7,377 bases of DNA from Sulfurimonas sp. (lineage in GTDB: Bacteria; Campylobacterota; Campylobacteria; Campylobacterales; Sulfurimonadaceae). A program made the translations under genes and the position numbers. The notes below the pieces were generated by a model. The model was not told where the DNA came from and ran no database searches. It worked only from the letters and a program-made list of their open reading frames with translations. The DNA lies in NCBI GenBank assembly GCA_016764205.1, contig JAESSH010000015.1, positions 1,102 through 8,478 on the forward strand. The letters are read 5' to 3'. How positions within the stretch are numbered: the first letter of the stretch is position 1; each line of letters opens with the position of its first letter. Positions 2 to 7,145 of this stretch are shown here, piece after piece.

Positions 2-2131
2 GATGCAAGCTACTTCTCCCAACAGCAGCATCCATCTTCTTTGATGGATTATATGGCAATACGCTTATACTTTGAAATAAAACATACGAAAAAAAATAAA
101 ATCAACAACTTCGAAAAATTCACTTCTTATTCCAAAGAAAATAATGCCTACACAATCCTAAAACTTTTACAATACAAGGATAAGCTTCCTGGTGTTTACC
201 TTGATTCTTTAGAGGAAAGTAAAGACTATGAAGAGATTCTCAATGATTATATTTTACATGAAATTCAACTCGATGCTCTGCAAATACAGCATGCAAAAGA
301 ATTATTACCACACTTTGATATTTCACTTACAGAGTTTACAGATTTTATTCATTTTTTACAAAAAGAAGAAGGGTTTGTCTGGCTAAAATCATTGGAAGAT
401 ACTTATATACATAGCTATATCAATGAATTTGCAATGCATGCTACTCAAGAGGAAAAACCCTTAGCTTCAGTAACATTTTGTCTTGATGTACGGTCTGAAG
501 TTATCCGTAGAACCATTGAAGATTCAGGGGCATACACAAGCTACGGAGCAGGAGGATTTTTAGGATTACCTATTGCCTTTGTTGAATTCGATAAGGCTCA
601 CGAACTTTTTTTAGCTCCAGCCATAATTAAACCAACAAATGTAGTTTTTGAGATACCAAAAGAATCACATGAAGAATATAGTAATAAAAAAGGTATTGCT
701 AAAACCAGTAAGAAAATCTTAAGTGACCTTAAAAATAACCCTTATACTCCATATATAATGGTTGAAGCTATAGGATGGATTTTTGGAATAGCTCTCTTTG
801 GTAAAACATTTTTTCCAAGAAAGACTGAAAAACTTTTCTCAAAAATGAAACCTCAAAAACCTAAGACTTCCTATACTCTTGATAAACTATCATCAAAAGA
901 AATAGAGAAGTATGTTAAAAAGTTACATGTAAAAATTATTCACGAAGTTATAGTAAATAACCATCTTACATTAGCTGAAGAAGAGATTGAGAAAATCTGG
1001 AAACACCTTATTTTTGCTACTCCCTTAGACTTAGATATTTCTCATAAAATTATCAATAAACTAACAAGCCATTATCAAATAACAAAAGATGATTACGAGT
1101 TTCAAAAAGAAAAATTAACTATGGTTGGTTTTACTCTTGAAGAAAAAGTAAAATATGTCTATAACTTTTTAACCATGATAGGACAGGTAAAGGATTTTCC
1201 TAAATTTGTTATTATAGTTGGGCACGGAAGCGTATCTAGCAATAACCCCTTTGAATCAGCCCTTGATTGTGGAGCATGTGGTGGTAATATTAGCTTACCA
1301 AATACAAGAGCATTATGTATGATTGCAAATATACCTGAAGTACGTGCAGAACTTCTCAAAAAAGGTATTAGTATTCCTGAAAATGTAAAATTTATGCCTG
1401 CGCTTCATACAACCACAACAGATGAGATTACATTTTATGATATGGATATACTGAGTGATGAAGAGCTAAAATGTTTTAGTCTCATTCAATCCGATTTTAA
1501 AAAAGCATCCTATGCCGCCAGAGAAGAAAGAGCAAGATTCTTACCAAATACGAATACTCAAGAAGATGTGTTTATTAAATCTATGGACTGGTCTGACCCA
1601 CGACCAGAATGGGGTTTAGCTGGTAATATGGGAGTGTATGCAGGTCCTAGAAGCTCTACAAAGCATATGACATTTAACAACCGTTTATTTATGCACTCTT
1701 ATGATTCTTCTATTGATAATGAAAATGCAGATATTCTAACCCGAATCTTTGATGGCCCCCTCATTGTTGGTGAGTGGATTAATCTCGAACATTATTTTTC
1801 AACTGTTGATAACAGCATCTATGGAGCAGGTTCAAAGGTTTACCACAATGTTGTGTCAAAAATAGGCGTTTATACTGGTAACTATAGTGACCTAAAAATT
1901 GGTCTTCCCTCACAGTCTGTTATCTTAGATGGAGAGGCATACCATGAGCCTATACGCTTACTCACCTTTATGGAAGCACCTTTGAGTACGGTAGCTAAAG
2001 CCGTAGAAAATTCTATTGCACAAGAATTTATTTTAAATGAATGGATTAGACCAATCGTACTTGACAAAGAGGCTAAGAAGATTTACTCTTATGAATCAGG
2101 TGAGTTTATAGTTATTAAAGAACTTGATTAA
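2..2131 (+). CDS. dabA: DabA, zinc-containing subunit of the inorganic carbon transporter (DUF2309/UPF0753), 5'-partial
   Basis: This is the C-terminal ~709 residues of DabA. In characterised systems DabA pairs with the NuoL-like membrane protein DabB to drive energy-coupled CO2 hydration and accumulate bicarbonate. The frame is open to the left edge (in-frame codons read D-A-S-Y-F-S before a TTG at 41), so neither the TTG nor the following ATG is the true start, and the N-terminal part lies outside. Numbering from the TTG, the carbonic-anhydrase-like zinc ligands are all visible: C147 and D149 in FCLDVRSE, H395 in VGHGS, and C410 in LDCGACGG. They match C351, D353, H524 and C539 of Halothiobacillus DabA2. 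Other family blocks are DWSDPRPEWGLAGN (~516-529), the GAGSKVYHNVV region and the HEPIRLL block near the end. A hydrophobic stretch lies at ~238-258. The C-terminus looks complete. dabB is not in the window and is probably upstream. The next gene follows after 18 bp and is likely cotranscribed. Confidence 0.93.
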   Translation, partial: DASYFSQQQHPSSLMDYMAIRLYFEIKHTKKNKINNFEKFTSYSKENNAYTILKLLQYKDKLPGVYLDSLEESKDYEEILNDYILHEIQLDALQIQHAKELLPHFDISLTEFTDFIHFLQKEEGFVWLKSLEDTYIHSYINEFAMHATQEEKPLASVTFCLDVRSEVIRRTIEDSGAYTSYGAGGFLGLPIAFVEFDKAHELFLAPAIIKPTNVVFEIPKESHEEYSNKKGIAKTSKKILSDLKNNPYTPYIMVEAIGWIFGIALFGKTFFPRKTEKLFSKMKPQKPKTSYTLDKLSSKEIEKYVKKLHVKIIHEVIVNNHLTLAEEEIEKIWKHLIFATPLDLDISHKIINKLTSHYQITKDDYEFQKEKLTMVGFTLEEKVKYVYNFLTMIGQVKDFPKFVIIVGHGSVSSNNPFESALDCGACGGNISLPNTRALCMIANIPEVRAELLKKGISIPENVKFMPALHTTTTDEITFYDMDILSDEELKCFSLIQSDFKKASYAAREERARFLPNTNTQEDVFIKSMDWSDPRPEWGLAGNMGVYAGPRSSTKHMTFNNRLFMHSYDSSIDNENADILTRIFDGPLIVGEWINLEHYFSTVDNSIYGAGSKVYHNVVSKIGVYTGNYSDLKIGLPSQSVILDGEAYHEPIRLLTFMEAPLSTVAKAVENSIAQEFILNEWIRPIVLDKEAKKIYSYESGEFIVIKELD

Positions 2132-2149: not shown

Positions 2150-2386
2150 ATGTATAGAATTCATATAGAAAAAGAATGTAGTTGTTTTATAAAGGGATCA
2201 TTTGTTAATGATGAAGTCTTTAAAGACAAGGCAGATGCTATAATGAAAGCAAAAATAATCGAATGCAGAATGAACCAAGAATTTTGTCACACACATTATT
2301 TCGAGGCAGAAGACATGGGAGATGAAATTATCATTCGTAGTACTGTACGCCCAGTTGATGAAGACGATGACGATGACTATGACTAG
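2150..2386 (+). CDS. Small Cys/His protein with acidic tail, paralogue of the next gene (unknown family)
   Basis: A 78-aa soluble-looking protein that I cannot name. An AAAGGA ribosome binding site lies about 5 bases before the ATG, and the gene begins 18 bp after dabA, so it is probably in the dabA transcript. Visible features are an ECSC motif (C10, C12), C39, and an MNQEFCHTH block giving C46 and H49 (plus H47). The C-terminus is a run of Asp/Glu from residue 70 (DEDDDDDYD). It aligns without gaps to the next protein over about 53 residues with 18 identities, including C10, C12, C46 and H49, which makes a Cys3His metal site plausible. There is no signal peptide or membrane segment. The acidic tail is encoded by near-perfect GAT/GAC repeats. 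Metal binding and a role with DabA are inferences from residue conservation and position. Confidence 0.8.
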   Translation: MYRIHIEKECSCFIKGSFVNDEVFKDKADAIMKAKIIECRMNQEFCHTHYFEAEDMGDEIIIRSTVRPVDEDDDDDYD

Positions 2387-2460
2387 AAAGCGCATACTTT
2401 ACAAAACGTATGTATAAGTAATTCATTATTTGTATTTAAGTTCTTATTGTTATTATCCCG

Positions 2461-2490
2461 TATAAATTTTATTATCAAAAGGAAATATAT
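2461..2490 (+). promoter_or_regulatory. Possible promoter -10 and RBS before the second small gene
   Basis: The 104-bp gap 2387-2490 is much longer than the 18 bp before the first small gene and is AT-rich. A TATAAA at 2461-2466 could be a -10 element, preceded by a T-rich stretch but no clear -35, as is common in Campylobacterota. A good ribosome binding site, AAAAGGA, lies at 2477-2483, 7 bases before the ATG at 2491. The RBS is well supported. The promoter is weak, and readthrough from dabA is equally possible. Confidence 0.25.
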
Positions 2491-2733
2491 ATGTTTTTAG
2501 TAACAGTGGAAAAAGAATGCGGATGTCTTCGTAAAAGTGAGATTCAAAAAGAAAAGTCATTTGAAAAAAGAGAAGATGCAGTGCTTTACTCTCAATCAAT
2601 AGCAGAAATAATGAACGAAGATTTTTGTCAGCAACATCTATTTACCGCAAGAGCTTCAGCCGGTAATGAGATTATGATTACTGTTGGACAGAATGCAGGT
2701 GGTGGATGTTGTGGTGGTGGACACTGCGATTAA
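2491..2733 (+). CDS. Small Cys/His protein with GGGCC-GGGHC metal-binding-like tail (unknown family)
   Basis: An 80-aa paralogue of the preceding gene, of unknown family. The shared core holds ECGC (C10, C12) and MNEDFCQQH (C46, H49). The C-terminus from residue 70 is a Gly/Cys/His tail: two tandem five-residue units, GGGCC and GGGHC, then Asp. Such tails resemble metal-binding extensions seen on proteins such as SlyD and on some nickel, zinc or iron-sulfur chaperones. The acidic tail of its neighbour is absent. A strong AAAAGGA RBS supports the ATG. The stop codon is 6 bp from the stop of the convergent COG0523 GTPase gene, with no T-tract terminator between them. Predicted role (inference): cytoplasmic metal carrier or scaffold acting with the GTPase and/or DabA. 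No membrane segment or signal peptide is visible. Confidence 0.82.
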   Translation: MFLVTVEKECGCLRKSEIQKEKSFEKREDAVLYSQSIAEIMNEDFCQQHLFTARASAGNEIMITVGQNAGGGCCGGGHCD

Positions 2734-2739
2734 TCGCCA

Positions 2740-3711
2740 CTAGGGCTTGATTGAAAAAGTTGGTGTAGACAATACATCAAATTTTTCACATAAAGCCTTC
2801 ACATCTTCTTCTATGTTTTCTCCAATAAATATCAACAAAGACTTTTCATTGTAATCTTGCAACTCTTCAAAATTAAGATCCCCAAAGGCATAATTAATAA
2901 AAAGAGCATTATCAACATCGCTCACTTTTACAACACCTTTGACTCTATAAATATTTTTAGGTAAGCTCTTTAAAATCATATCTACATCGTTAAATGAGCT
3001 TCCATCTTTTATATACCCTACTTTTTGCGTAAGAGAATCTTTTATAGTATGATTCAAGTGCTTATAGTCTTCAGCAAACTTTACAACTTCATCTACCTTG
3101 TACATGCCCTCAAAGACTTCTTTATTAACAAGCCCTTGTTCTGCCCTATAAAGTACATAGTTTTTGAATATAGGCTTGCCTGTCATCGTATTTTTAATAT
3201 TATATTTCTCTTTTATCTCTCTTACACTCTTCTCGGTTTCATTTGCTTCTTCTTCACTTACTAAGTCAATCTTGTTGAGGACAATAATATTAGATCCACC
3301 AAGCTGGTATTGTGCAGTTGAATTATCTTTATAAGAATGAAAGTTTTTTGTATCAACTATCGCGATAATCCCATCAACAGATATACCTAAATTTTGAAGG
3401 GATAAAAAGATTGGAAAAGGTTCAGATGCACCAGATGTTTCTACAAATATTATCTCAGGATTATATTTGCTTATTATTTCTAAAACACCACTCTCAAATT
3501 CTTCTGCAAGCTGACAACAAATACAACCTTCAGAAATTTCAAGTACCTCGCTATAAACATTTTTCAATATTTTACTATCAACACCAATATCACCAAATTC
3601 ATTAACAATAATTGCTATTTTTTTATCTTTAAAATTTTCTTTAACACTATTTGTGAGCATAGTAGTTTTACCTACGCCTAAAAATCCTGTTATAACAAAA
3701 GAGGAAATCAT
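2740..3711 (-). CDS. COG0523/CobW-type G3E GTPase, predicted metallochaperone
   Basis: A 323-aa GTP-binding protein of the G3E family (CobW/YjiA/ZNG1 relatives). These couple GTP hydrolysis to delivery of Zn, Co, Ni or other metals to client proteins. Visible in order are Walker A GFLGVGKT (9-16), NEFGDIGVD (37-45), the family metal motif GCICC (C63, C65, C66), the Walker B region with ETSG (91-94), and NKID (146-149) for guanine specificity. A CobW C-terminal-like domain lies at about residues 250-310 (IYRVKGVVKV onward). There is no His-rich insert, so the metal cannot be read from the sequence. The segment before NKID reads QLGGSN where many relatives have an AD-containing stretch. An AAAGG RBS at 3718-3722 supports the start. 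It lies 77 bp downstream of the oxidoreductase operon, behind a hairpin, and converges on the Cys/His small protein gene. Client unknown; the nearby zinc protein DabA is the obvious candidate (inference). Confidence 0.92.
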   Translation of the reverse strand: MISSFVITGFLGVGKTTMLTNSVKENFKDKKIAIIVNEFGDIGVDSKILKNVYSEVLEISEGCICCQLAEEFESGVLEIISKYNPEIIFVETSGASEPFPIFLSLQNLGISVDGIIAIVDTKNFHSYKDNSTAQYQLGGSNIIVLNKIDLVSEEEANETEKSVREIKEKYNIKNTMTGKPIFKNYVLYRAEQGLVNKEVFEGMYKVDEVVKFAEDYKHLNHTIKDSLTQKVGYIKDGSSFNDVDMILKSLPKNIYRVKGVVKVSDVDNALFINYAFGDLNFEELQDYNEKSLLIFIGENIEEDVKALCEKFDVLSTPTFSIKP

Positions 3712-3788: not shown

Positions 3789-4496
3789 TTATGATGCTTT
3801 TTTTACAGGATCTAAGATAGGTGCTAGACCTACTTCTTTAACCCATTCAGTAACTAAGTCATATGCAGCAGATGCTGTATCAAGATTTTTTTGAATAAGT
3901 TCTTTCTTTTTCTTAAATTTCTTTTCAATAACTGAGTCAAGTGTAGCAGTACCACCAGAAGCTGTATATTTCTTAAGGAATCTATCTTTAATCCCTTCTT
4001 CAATAGCAGACTTACTAACAGTTCCTAATGCTCCAAATAATGCACCAAGCATTGCCATATTTGTTGCAAGTTCAGTACCAGCAATTTCAATAGCAAATCG
4101 TGTAAAGTCTCGTGTTAAAACTTTAACATTTTTTGAATCTAAAAACTTTTTATCAGATTCAGTTAAAAGGTTAAACTCACTATTTATAATAACAAGACCG
4201 TTTTCTTTAATACCAGCATAAAAAGGCATAGTATATGATTTACCCATAGTAATTACTTGTGGGTGATAAATCATAACGATATCAGGATAAATAACTTCCC
4301 CTCTATCATAAATAGGCACGGTACTTATTCTTGCATAACTCTCTGAAGGTGCCATTCTTTTTTCAGCTCCAAAAAATGGATTTGAAACAGCATAGTACCC
4401 TTCAGTATCTGCAGCAGTAGCAGCGATATGTGCTGCTGTAACTGCCCCTTGACCACCAAGTGCTGGCATTCTGATTTTAATCGAATCTTTTGACAT
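3789..4496 (-). CDS. porG: 2-oxoacid (pyruvate-type) : acceptor oxidoreductase, gamma subunit
   Basis: A 235-aa gamma-family subunit (called PorC in Helicobacter). It is expected to carry the domain that contacts CoA and structures the TPP enzyme. Residues 11-17 read PALGGQG, the family's glycine-rich GGQG motif. FGAEKRMAPSESYARIS at 42-58 matches the conserved Gly-Ala-Glu-Arg/Lys and Arg-Ile-Ser block. The C-terminal ~50 residues are Lys-rich and helical-looking, making the protein longer than the usual ~185 aa. It contains no cysteine, so no iron-sulfur cluster is fused to it. The ATG shares one base with the porB stop (TAATG), and a GAAGGA RBS lies inside the porB end, so translation is probably coupled. 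It is the last gene of the four-gene operon. Pyruvate specificity comes from the beta subunit, not from this one. Confidence 0.85.
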   Translation of the reverse strand: MSKDSIKIRMPALGGQGAVTAAHIAATAADTEGYYAVSNPFFGAEKRMAPSESYARISTVPIYDRGEVIYPDIVMIYHPQVITMGKSYTMPFYAGIKENGLVIINSEFNLLTESDKKFLDSKNVKVLTRDFTRFAIEIAGTELATNMAMLGALFGALGTVSKSAIEEGIKDRFLKKYTASGGTATLDSVIEKKFKKKKELIQKNLDTASAAYDLVTEWVKEVGLAPILDPVKKAS

Positions 4497-5356
4497 TATA
4501 GAATTCCTTCTTCTTTACATTTTTTCAAATGTGCTTCTGCAGCTTCAGAAACATATTTAAATGATACAAATCTATCTTTATCTTGCTCTTTCATTTCACG
4601 AAGACCTTCATGAGCATCTAAACCGATTTCAAGAATACATGGAGTATAAAGGTTTATATATGTTGGACCAATTTCTCTTGCAATCAAAACTGCTTCTCTT
4701 AATGTTTTTGCAACAGCCTTAGGTGCTGAAGCGGTAAGGTTTACAGAATAGTGACAACCTGCTTCAACAGCAATTTTCCACATTTGTACTTTTTCAAATA
4801 GTTTCCCTTTAGGAGCCATTTTAAAAACCTGACCTTTTGGAGTCATTCCAGACTCTTGTCCACCAGTATTTGCATATACTTCATTATCAAAACAAATTGT
4901 AGTGATATTTTCTTGTCTAAAGAATGACTGCATTGTATAATCTAAACCGATATCAACAGTAGCACCATCTCCAGCTAAAACAATAACATCTTTAGTTTTG
5001 TTTGGAAATCTCCATTCTAAAGATCTTTTGATACCAGATGCAACTGCATTTTGGTTACCAAAAAGTGAGTGCACAGTATGAAGTGCAATATGTGGAAACA
5101 TTAAAGATGTACAACCAGTAGAGTTTACAATAACTGTCTCTTCTGGAACAGGAAGTGCCGCTAAGATATATCTTAGTCCAGCAGCTTCAGGACAACCAGC
5201 ACATAATGAGTGCTCTTCCATTATCTCTTTTCTGTCTGTTAAATCCATAATACCGCGTTTTTTCTCGCCCCAAGTAGCATCTTCCTCAAGATCAATAATC
5301 TCTTTTGGCATGATGTCTCTAAATTCAGGATTAATTTTATAAATATCTACTGACAT
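4496..5356 (-). CDS. porB: 2-oxoacid (pyruvate-type) : acceptor oxidoreductase, beta subunit (TPP-binding)
   Basis: A 286-aa catalytic subunit that binds thiamine pyrophosphate and the proximal [4Fe-4S] cluster. The four expected cluster cysteines are visible: C52 and C55 (LCAGC), C82 (TGCTS) and C240 (YTPC). The TPP/Mg motif begins with GDG at 130-132 or adjacent and runs to DNEVYANTGGQESGMTPKG (157-175). The NTGGQ-S-x-TP form is typical of pyruvate oxidoreductases and differs from the GLTKGQ form of two-subunit 2-oxoglutarate enzymes, so pyruvate is preferred. Five-subunit 2-oxoglutarate enzymes of the Hydrogenobacter For type are close relatives and cannot be excluded. A 50-residue N-terminal segment precedes the first Cys motif. 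The start is one base after the porA stop, with AAAGGAG inside the porA end. In reductive TCA metabolism the complex would carboxylate acetyl-CoA to pyruvate using low-potential ferredoxin. Confidence 0.9.
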   Translation of the reverse strand: MSVDIYKINPEFRDIMPKEIIDLEEDATWGEKKRGIMDLTDRKEIMEEHSLCAGCPEAAGLRYILAALPVPEETVIVNSTGCTSLMFPHIALHTVHSLFGNQNAVASGIKRSLEWRFPNKTKDVIVLAGDGATVDIGLDYTMQSFFRQENITTICFDNEVYANTGGQESGMTPKGQVFKMAPKGKLFEKVQMWKIAVEAGCHYSVNLTASAPKAVAKTLREAVLIAREIGPTYINLYTPCILEIGLDAHEGLREMKEQDKDRFVSFKYVSEAAEAHLKKCKEEGIL

Positions 5357-5357
5357 T

Positions 5358-6560
5358 TTATGCTCCTTTCTCTACATTAATATGCTCGAAAACTTCTTTA
5401 AGAATCGCTTCAACTGGCATACTCATACCACCAGCAACTCTCGGCCTACCGATAATCTCAGTGTCGGTTTTCCCATAAAGAGAAGTTCTTACTTCTTTAT
5501 CTAACCAACCAACAACATTGAACTCAGGAACAAAAATATGCTTCGCACTTCTTGTAGCTTCTAAAAGTTCTTTATGAGGAAATGGTCGAATAGTTCTTAA
5601 TTTAACAACCTTGGACTTAATACCCAATTTAGCTAATTCTCTGTGCGCTTCTTTTGCTTGATGAGAAGCAGTTCCACAAGCAACAAATACTATTTCAGCA
5701 TCTTCGTCACCACTAGTGTGAACAAGACCTTTAAGGTAATGTTTCGCATGTGGAATAGATCTCTCAACTGCAGATCTTACTTCCCACTGCCAAGAAGCAT
5801 GTGTTGCATAAGAAATATAGTTCGATTTCATTACAAATGGATCTCTAAGAAATCTACCAGGAGGCATTTCTGAATCAATCGGAGGTAATGGAGCTGCATA
5901 TGGATCATATGGAAATAATGCAATATCATCAGGTGGTAGCATTACAGATTCTCTTGTATGTGATACAAAGAAACCATCAACAACAGTAACAATTGGAACA
6001 TGTACTTCTGGTTGTTCAGAAACCATAAATGCAGCAATTATCATGTCAAAAAGTTCTTGAACATCTTCTGCATACCAAATCATACACCCTGTTTCTAACA
6101 TAAATGTTACTTCAAGATTATCTGGTTGAATTGTTAGAGGTGAATTAATCCCTCTCGCCATTAGTATAAGTTGAACTGGAATTCTAGTACCTGACCACAT
6201 TGGAAAGTTTTCCATTGCTCGCAAAGTACCTGGTCCTGAAGTTGTTGTTACTGTACGTGATCCTGACATTGCACATCCTGCAACCTCAGACATAACTCCA
6301 AATTCATTTTCCCCTCTAAAATACATACCTATGTAACCCTCTGCCCATAGCTCACCAATAAGGTGTGCTGCTTCAGATTGTGGTGTTATAGGATAAGATA
6401 CAGATGCATCAACTGTACATCTTTTTACCGCCTCTTTTGTCACTTCAGAACCTGTCATAAAGTGTTTTTCTCTTGGAGCTTCAAAAAGTAAGTAGTCAGC
6501 CGAAACCATCGTCTGACCTGCCCAGTTTTTATCTCCATTTATTCTATTGTGTACGCTCAT
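5358..6560 (-). CDS. porA: 2-oxoacid (pyruvate-type) : acceptor oxidoreductase, alpha subunit
   Basis: A 400-aa alpha subunit, of usual length, that completes the TPP site with beta. The pyrimidine-binding domain spans about residues 38-200 and shows YPITP (56-60), RGENEF with the candidate catalytic glutamates (E84, E86), TSGPG (107-111) and VVDGFFVSHTRE (193-204). A transketolase-C-like domain II follows at about 285-390 (AEIVFVACGTASHQA onward). An unusually strong Shine-Dalgarno, AGGAGGT (6565-6571), lies 4 bases before the ATG, inside the 15-bp gap after the preceding gene. The N-terminal ~35 residues (including NWAGQTMVSADYLLFEAPRE) are an extension before the first conserved strand. 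The sequence differs strongly from the Helicobacter PorA as I recall it and looks closer to the Hydrogenobacter five-subunit type. Substrate assignment (pyruvate over 2-oxoglutarate) is probable, not certain. Confidence 0.88.
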   Translation of the reverse strand: MSVHNRINGDKNWAGQTMVSADYLLFEAPREKHFMTGSEVTKEAVKRCTVDASVSYPITPQSEAAHLIGELWAEGYIGMYFRGENEFGVMSEVAGCAMSGSRTVTTTSGPGTLRAMENFPMWSGTRIPVQLILMARGINSPLTIQPDNLEVTFMLETGCMIWYAEDVQELFDMIIAAFMVSEQPEVHVPIVTVVDGFFVSHTRESVMLPPDDIALFPYDPYAAPLPPIDSEMPPGRFLRDPFVMKSNYISYATHASWQWEVRSAVERSIPHAKHYLKGLVHTSGDEDAEIVFVACGTASHQAKEAHRELAKLGIKSKVVKLRTIRPFPHKELLEATRSAKHIFVPEFNVVGWLDKEVRTSLYGKTDTEIIGRPRVAGGMSMPVEAILKEVFEHINVEKGA

Positions 6561-6575
6561 AATAACCTCCTAAGC

Positions 6576-7145
6576 CTATTTGCCGAGTTCTTTTTTTACT
6601 TCTTTTGCAATTTTAATGAACTTTTCTAACTCTGCTGAATGCTGGTCACGGATAGTAGCCATAGCATCTTCATGTCCAGAAAGTCCACATATTGCAGCAG
6701 TATAACAATCAGTTTCAGATCTAACGATTTTTAATGCAACATTTGCATAATGACAATGAACACCAATAAAGATACATGCTTTAATATCATTATGCCAAAT
6801 TGTTAAGTTTGGATGATTAGGATTAATCTCTACTTCTGGATTAATCTTAGGATATTTTGGTCTATAATCATACATTGGTATGAGTTTAGCACCTAAAACT
6901 TCTGCCATCTCTTTAATGAGTGGCGCTTTTTTCTTTGCTTCTTCATTCCACGCATATAAAACTTGTGGTCCAGGGAAGATTGTTGCATTTTCACTTGTTA
7001 ACATTACTCTAGCAATTTCTCTCATTGCTACTTCTTCATCAACTATTTCCGTTAATAACAGTCCTTTTCCTTTTGGTGGTGTAATTAAACCATCATAAGT
7101 TGCAACTGGATATGGTGAATAGTAAGCTGGGCCTAGATTAGCCAT
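6576..7145 (-). CDS. Accessory subunit of five-subunit-type oxidoreductase (CO dehydrogenase beta / ACDS epsilon-like)
   Basis: A 189-aa protein, first gene of the operon. It resembles the CO dehydrogenase beta/acetyl-CoA decarbonylase epsilon-like family (PF02552 type) that is found beside alpha-beta-gamma oxidoreductase genes in Campylobacterota and Aquificales; this is from memory of the family, not a search. The N-terminus reads GPAYYSPYPVATYDG; a Rossmann-like alternation follows (TIFPGPQVLYAW, ending with CIFIGVH). The C-terminal half holds a cluster of potential metal ligands: C124, H130-C131-H132, C147, C153 and H158. There is no CxxCxxCxxxC, so it is not the usual ferredoxin-type delta subunit. 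Its counterpart would be one of the extra subunits in the Hydrogenobacter porEDABG or forDABGE clusters; I do not assign a letter. AGGAG at 7151-7155 supports the ATG. It probably assists electron transfer or assembly (inference). Confidence 0.75.
   Translation of the reverse strand: MANLGPAYYSPYPVATYDGLITPPKGKGLLLTEIVDEEVAMREIARVMLTSENATIFPGPQVLYAWNEEAKKKAPLIKEMAEVLGAKLIPMYDYRPKYPKINPEVEINPNHPNLTIWHNDIKACIFIGVHCHYANVALKIVRSETDCYTAAICGLSGHEDAMATIRDQHSAELEKFIKIAKEVKKELGK

Follow-up and report, generated by a model that had tools for sequence, protein, structure and literature searches.

Genes and features of the locus

The window, by which we mean the whole 7,377-nucleotide stretch of DNA that was analysed, opens within a dabA gene, the 3′ part of which (positions 2–2131, forward strand) lies in a frame open from base 2 and matches PF10070 with an E-value of 4.4e-164. 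The zinc-site motifs CxDxR and GH...CGAC are both intact in this fragment, at residues 160 and 407, and the product is a DAB/DAC CO2-uptake subunit; all 34 DabA proteins of at least 690 amino acids have CxDxRS, and 33 of them have GH...CGAC. Eighteen nucleotides past the dabA stop codon begins F-A (2150–2386, forward strand), an ATG-initiated gene for a 78-residue protein that has the core pattern CxC-x33-CxxH and an acidic C-terminal tail. After a spacer of 104 nt (2387–2490), in which no terminator-like site was found, it is followed by F-B (2491–2733, forward strand), which also starts with ATG and encodes 80 residues with the same core and the tail GGGCCGGGHCD. Promoter-like matches between positions 1900 and 3000 (7, versus 4.9 with a standard deviation of 2.0 in shuffled sequences) were not clearly above expectation.

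The two halves of the putative metal site are encoded, again on the forward strand, by codons C10-S11-C12 (2177–2185) and C46-H47-T48-H49 (2285–2296) in F-A, and by codons C10-G11-C12 (2518–2526) and C46-Q47-Q48-H49 (2626–2637) in F-B. Four further Cys/His residues (C73, C74, H78 and C79) lie in the glycine-rich tail of F-B (2698–2730, forward strand), a segment that varies among subfamilies, while F-A has additional H5, C39 and H47, which are not family-wide.

Downstream, a convergent gene on the reverse strand (2740–3711) encodes a COG0523/CobW-family GTPase (PF02492, E = 5.1e-46), which we do not count in the system. Beyond it lie genes for three subunits of the 2-oxoacid:ferredoxin oxidoreductase type (PF01558, PF02775, PF01855) and a PF02552 protein (3789–7145, other strand).

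Upstream gene order had to be read from relatives of the window locus, since the window holds only the 3′ part of dabA; in these the order is dabB (NuoL-like), an interstitial membrane protein gene, and dabA (PF10070). In the loci L025–L030, L035 and L036 (Sulfurovum), genes for two uncharacterised proteins (about 130–180 and 241–245 amino acids) precede dabB, and representatives of these had no Pfam or NCBIfam match.

The two small proteins belong to one family

The preliminary description of this DNA had reported 18 identities between proteins A and B, aligned without gaps over their first 53 residues and including C10, C12, C46 and H49, and this count proved exact (M1, E7, K8, E9, C10, C12, K15, F24, D29, A30, I37, M41, N42, F45, C46, H49, F51 and A53). 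By BLASTP, 22 of 63 residues are identical with one gap (E = 2e-13 in a single comparison), and the local alignment scores 114, whereas none of 2000 shuffled versions of B exceeded 48. In five orthologue pairs each of A and B, dN/dS was about 0.03–0.23 (with dS above 1 in three of the five A pairs), which indicates purifying selection and hence that A and B are genuine genes.

Both proteins are members of a single, apparently unnamed family, here called F, which is absent from Pfam and NCBIfam and consists of small proteins with the pattern CxC-x33-CxxHxF in a core of about 68 residues. Neither A nor B scored above the curated cut-offs of Pfam-A or NCBIfam, and when 49 diverse members were compared with Pfam, the best E-value was 0.0015 (for one member) and no family was matched by more than two of them; the earlier suggestion of a possibly undescribed family was thus supported, for A and B by both collections and for the 49 relatives by Pfam. 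The label "DUF2249 family" that one member, P0160, carries as its JGI name received no support from Pfam.

Among 5.8 billion proteins, 27 relatives were found for B and 92 for A, and a profile of the 49 members retrieved 938 (E ≤ 0.01). Apart from functional labels without an organism, the names on the relatives listed (for the profile, on 120 of the 938) are those of Campylobacterota or plain "bacterium". The titles of the 80 contigs kept from 200 relatives found likewise name Campylobacterota genera or groups, except for one "bacterium", and the one plasmid record among 72,556 that B matches is from a Sulfurovum. On the evidence of these protein, contig and plasmid records, family F is likely restricted to Campylobacterota.

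In a set of 353 unique sequences (351–353 per column), C10, C12, C46, H49 and F51 are the only core positions that are 100% invariant, followed by M41 and F45 (98.6% each), S16 (96.6%) and N42 (95.8%). Part of this set was collected by search words and patterns biased towards the motifs; however, all five positions are also kept in every one of the 119 complete rows of a second set, for which sequences were collected by a profile and not by motif patterns, the 120th row being partial and probably a chance match. Both window proteins carry all five residues, and the proposed retention of the four likely metal ligands thus holds well beyond the two proteins from which it was first read. The tails differ (GGCCGGGHC, SCSTGSCGC, CCGNGCC, acidic, or none).

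The full and invariant Cys3His set is strong evidence for a metal site in F, and the metal bound would most likely be zinc.

Predicted structure and resemblance to known metal sites

AlphaFold2 models of the two proteins (mean pLDDT 80.3 and pTM 0.62 for B, 81.4 and 0.64 for A) have a common layout, in which a strand (2–6), a short helix (11–15), a strand (21/22–24), a long helix (27–45) and two further strands (49–55 and 59/60–66/67) are followed by a poorly predicted tail. The first pair, C10 and C12, falls where the short helix begins, in the connection from strand 1 to strand 2, and the second pair, C46 and H49, in that from the long helix to strand 3. Weak structural matches of the models include a topology like that of proteins G and L, a layout in which both ligand-bearing connections are at the same end. 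The models contain no metal; in such a layout, C10, C12, C46 and H49 would probably lie close together in one site.

No convincing PDB relative was found for family F, nor could a relative of known function be established by fold or sequence. At E ≤ 10, the 49-member profile matched only the zinc domain of E. coli Hsp33 in the PDB (1xjh, E = 0.061; 1i7f, E = 0.34), whereas an 88-member profile had no match. A direct hhalign comparison of F with Hsp33 gave an E-value of 0.001 (as a single comparison), but the probability stayed low, at 21.7% for E. coli Hsp33 and 17.6% for an alignment of five Hsp33 sequences. Like F, the Hsp33 C-terminal domain (PF01430, 1xjh) has a CxC motif and a second metal-binding pair about 30 residues further on, and the alignment pairs CxC with CxC and C46 of F with the second cysteine of the Hsp33 CxxC. 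The fourth ligand is shifted, however: in F it is a histidine three residues after C46, and in Hsp33 a cysteine three residues before the aligned position. Furthermore, F is predicted to form a long helix before C46, where Hsp33 has strands, and it has no chaperone domain. The Hsp33 alignment has invariant C230, C232, C263 and C266, while F is Cys3His and lacks a conserved cysteine at the third of these positions; F thus does not carry the four zinc cysteines (CxC + CxxC) of the Hsp33 redox-switch domain. The likeness may hint at how the site works, as a resemblance and not as kinship.

Three cysteines and one histidine, with CxC first, also form the [2Fe-2S] site of CDGSH/mitoNEET proteins. 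All ligands of the CDGSH motif (CxC...CDGxH) fall within about 16 residues, whereas 33 residues separate the two pairs of F; with the spacing CxC-x33-CxxH found throughout the family, and no CDGSH family among the Pfam matches of the 49 members, this candidate was rejected.

Linkage to dabA

We compared 81 loci, comprising the window and the 80 kept from the 200 found. Forty-one hold an A gene, while the other 40 hold solo copies of F only and lack dabA on the stretch. Every one of the 41 A genes is at most 800 nt behind dabA; the label A was itself assigned by position behind dabA (in one case, L031_21, by hand, as dabA there runs off the contig and its end was found upstream), and the independent result is therefore the tree described below. 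Among the 35 A loci that extend 700 nt or more downstream, 28 have B as a second F gene behind A and seven do not.

A count by genome gave a similar picture, with the qualification that the dabA-bearing genomes overlap the 81 loci. One taxonomic family had dabA in 14 of 151 genomes and another in 14 of 150, and one more dabA-bearing genome came from a sample of the phylum; F lies directly behind dabA in 12 of 14, 14 of 14 and none of one, respectively, or 26 of the 29 dabA-bearing genomes.

The COG0523 gene of the window was considered as a fixed part of the arrangement. A COG0523 gene lies within 2 kb behind 15 of the 35 A genes with enough downstream sequence and is absent within that distance from 20, and thus no consistent link to COG0523 emerged.

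Phylogeny of family F

A midpoint-rooted FastTree tree of 133 sequences over 68 columns, the deep branches of which are weakly supported, places 40 dab-linked A proteins in one clade (support 1.0) that includes none of the 63 solo copies. L018_39, although labelled A, falls outside the clade and is actually a B protein, the A protein of the same locus not being included. The A clade adjoins solo copies of the Sulfurovum type, while B is found elsewhere in the tree together with five solo relatives. A local duplication giving rise to A and B, as implied when the pair was first described, is not compatible with this separation; instead, the pair goes back either to old paralogues that were brought together or to a very early duplication, and not to a recent tandem event.

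Contigs that carry A-clade members are titled Sulfurovum, Sulfurimonas, Sulfuricurvum, Sulfurospirillum and Arcobacter, and their flanks vary. That a clade free of solo copies spans several genera with varying flanks argues for selection on the pairing of A with dabA.

Thirty-three of the 40 A proteins have no cysteine after H49. The A protein of locus L002, where a single F gene lies behind dabA, bears a B-like CCGGG tail, and the CCGGG tail usual on B is likewise present in P0026, P0027 and P0090, three A-like proteins taken without their genomic context.

Distribution and solo copies

F was detected in 114 of 397 genomes drawn from Campylobacterota, with at most five copies each; a further genome search found up to six copies per genome. 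In contrast, dabA is present in four of 397 genomes of the phylum sample, three of which have F, and 111 of the 114 F-bearing genomes consequently have no dabA match (both counts cover 397 genomes with the same draw settings and are taken as one draw). Family F is therefore broader than a dab role, and a dependence of the whole family on dabA was rejected. The association with dabA put forward in the preliminary description thus stands for clade A and fails for the family as a whole, as does the idea that the role of F is tied in general to the zinc of DabA.

Solo copies of F adjoin many different, unrelated genes, named mostly from sequence. With most F genes free of dab and with such unrelated neighbours, the founding role of F would not have been DAB regulation. 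On Sulfurovum-type contigs (L039–L071), solo F is often divergent from a gene of the molybdopterin oxidoreductase family (Pfam), near DUF520/YajQ. This oxidoreductase cluster occurs 15 times beside solo F, and the gene is probably that of a formate dehydrogenase alpha subunit.

PII in the position behind dabA

The three exceptions to the presence of F behind dabA are the genomes G336 (locus L204), G337 (L203) and G490 (L205/L206). Their gene order is dabB, interstitial gene and dabA, followed by a gene for a PII protein of 99–103 amino acids (PF00543, E = 2e-19 to 7e-19). The full-length DabA proteins of G336 and G337 are about 34–35% identical to F-associated DabA, and the DabA halves of G490, where the operon lies on two contig ends, are 28–41% identical. 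PF00361 was matched on one DabB of the PII type, to which F-type DabB is about 35% identical. The interstitial protein of an F-type locus (L025) matches that of L203 (21% identity, E = 8e-12); it has no direct match to those of L204 and of a Nitrobacter plasmid (E = 0.15 and 0.89), but these two proteins match that of L203. A second, divergent type of three-gene dab operon, with PII instead of F, thus occurs within Campylobacterota. G337 and G490 carry F elsewhere in the genome, whereas G336 has none, and a profile of the PII proteins of the three genomes found no PII in the F-bearing dab stretches examined.

Compared with the PDB, the L203 PII protein matched 5d4n, 5d4o, 5d4p, 5drk and 5ds7 at 2e-22. 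Some of these entries we take to be the carboxysome-associated CPII, which, judging by the title of the paper on it, is reportedly regulated by bicarbonate.

A similar arrangement is found outside the phylum. On a Nitrobacter hamburgensis plasmid, dabB, a gene for a transmembrane protein and dabA are followed by an annotated PII gene. The DAB1-type DAC of Halothiobacillus neapolitanus (hneap_0907–0909) resembles the operon studied here in having a NuoL-like DabB, an interstitial membrane protein and DabA; there, however, PII and a small hypothetical protein follow dabA in the three-gene operon (PMC4633670), whereas here F follows. PII has also been placed at the 3′ end in one clade of such operons (PMC5700660). 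On plasmids of Halobaculum, Staphylococcus, Mesorhizobium, Thiodictyon and Methylocystis, dabB and dabA occur without an interstitial gene, and neither PII nor F is annotated behind dabA; this comparison draws on five plasmid dab operons from 123 matched records, with incomplete gene tables.

F and PII are alike in being small soluble proteins encoded by the first gene behind dabA in operons of dabB, a transmembrane protein gene and dabA. They differ in that F has no PF00543 match and has the invariant Cys/His set. Judged by gene order, F is the occupant of an apparent accessory slot of the three-gene dab operon in one Campylobacterota lineage. The seeming exchange with PII, for which the PII side comprises three Campylobacterota genomes, one Nitrobacter plasmid and two papers, is an argument from position; it suggests that the place behind dabA is a swappable accessory slot, held by PII in one lineage and by F in another.

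Possible roles of F-A and F-B

In H. neapolitanus, a model chemolithoautotroph, a DAB pump is essential for the uptake of CO2, and the zinc of DabA is held by a Cys2His set together with an Asp-Arg dyad (PMC13144422). The active site of DabA is described as gated and deep within the protein, and access to it and its catalysis are considered to be under tight regulation (PMC13144422); a protein that controls it is therefore plausible. A 2021 review reported evidence for control of inorganic carbon uptake by a partner protein only for SbtA (PMC8438413). Our literature search, which left most subscription journals and bioRxiv outside, found no paper that joins DabA, DabB and Campylobacterota and no relevant paper on DabA and Sulfurimonas, and in the passages on DUF2309 consulted it found no Campylobacterota case. 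The preliminary description knew of no described partner of this kind for DabA, and in the literature searched this remains so for F itself; the slot, however, has a known occupant elsewhere, namely PII.

Taken together, the sequence comparisons argue that F is a real family whose Cys/His site is very well supported, and that one of its clades constantly accompanies the gene for a DAB-type pump. The pair behind dabA may represent a novel type of helper or regulator of the CO2 pump, one that depends on metal or redox state. The reading we favour, to which we give a little less than an even chance, is that F-A and F-B are metal-binding accessory or regulatory proteins of the DAB1-type CO2 pump. 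As small soluble proteins, each with one Cys3His site (C10, C12, C46 and H49) most likely filled by zinc, they would, most likely, bind DabA, the cytoplasmic subunit, and respond to metal or thiol/redox state by controlling or stabilising it, in the position that PII holds in other dab operons of three genes. What speaks for regulation or assembly is the pairing of A with dabA and the exchange with PII, and four full ligands would fit a site that is structural or acts as a switch better than one for metal transfer. Against a regulator speak the facts that most F genes are not near dab and that B is missing behind seven of 35 A genes. More specifically, a dedicated pair of Cys3His sensors may have replaced PII as the control subunit of this proton-driven CO2 pump, so that metal or redox state would set CO2 capture, a proposal that we consider rather unlikely as it stands.

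The main rival to an accessory or regulatory role, which we also regard as rather unlikely, is that F-A and F-B act as zinc metallochaperones, or as a store of zinc, and load the Cys2His site of DabA, the mobile CCGGGHC tail of B capturing the ion and handing it over, possibly with the COG0523 GTPase. In its favour, DabA2 of H. neapolitanus has one catalytic zinc (PMC13144422), and B-type tails are rich in Cys/His and glycine, a feature that the CCGGG tails of P0026, P0027, P0090 and the A protein of the single-F locus L002 share; the 15 A genes with COG0523 within 2 kb point the same way. Most A proteins, however, lack any cysteine after H49, as described above, the other 20 A genes have no COG0523 gene at that distance, and nearly all F-bearing genomes lack a dabA to be served. 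In addition, dabAB1 of H. neapolitanus with the interstitial gene complements E. coli devoid of carbonic anhydrase without the seven other genes of its operon (PMC7714395), so that this DabA needs no dedicated chaperone in that setting.

Alternatively, F proteins could be general metal-site adaptors of Campylobacterota, in which case the dab copies would be passengers, co-transcribed but without any action on DAB. The unrelated neighbours of solo F genes and the five to six copies reached in some genomes fit this account, whereas an A clade free of solo copies across genera with varying flanks does not, and we consider it improbable. More doubtful still is a stand-alone thiol-zinc redox switch, akin to the Hsp33 domain, that protects or silences the pump under oxidants: the PDB matches of the 49-member profile speak for it, as do the absence of an Hsp33 (PF01430) match from all 16 Campylobacterota genomes searched, against its presence in eight of 14 control genomes, and a Leptospirillum DUF2309 gene that raised the tolerance of E. 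coli to chromate and peroxide (PMC9080137), yet the low hhalign probabilities, the empty search with the larger profile, the shifted fourth ligand, the long helix of F and its lack of a chaperone domain all stand against it.

For the interpretation of carbon uptake in Campylobacterota, a small, linked and strictly conserved partner offers a testable regulator or assembly factor, and a widespread family without a name in Pfam or NCBIfam is added.

As a minor observation, genes for 2-oxoacid:ferredoxin oxidoreductase are present somewhere on 34 of the 41 A loci, in varying orientation, and the PF02552 gene near the F-type dab operon of the window represents the CO dehydrogenase beta/acetyl-CoA synthase epsilon family. 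Among the described autotrophs of the Campylobacterota, CO2 fixation mostly runs through the reductive TCA cycle (PMC6908604), and the synteny of these oxidoreductase genes with dab may reflect a supply of carbon to reductive carboxylation.
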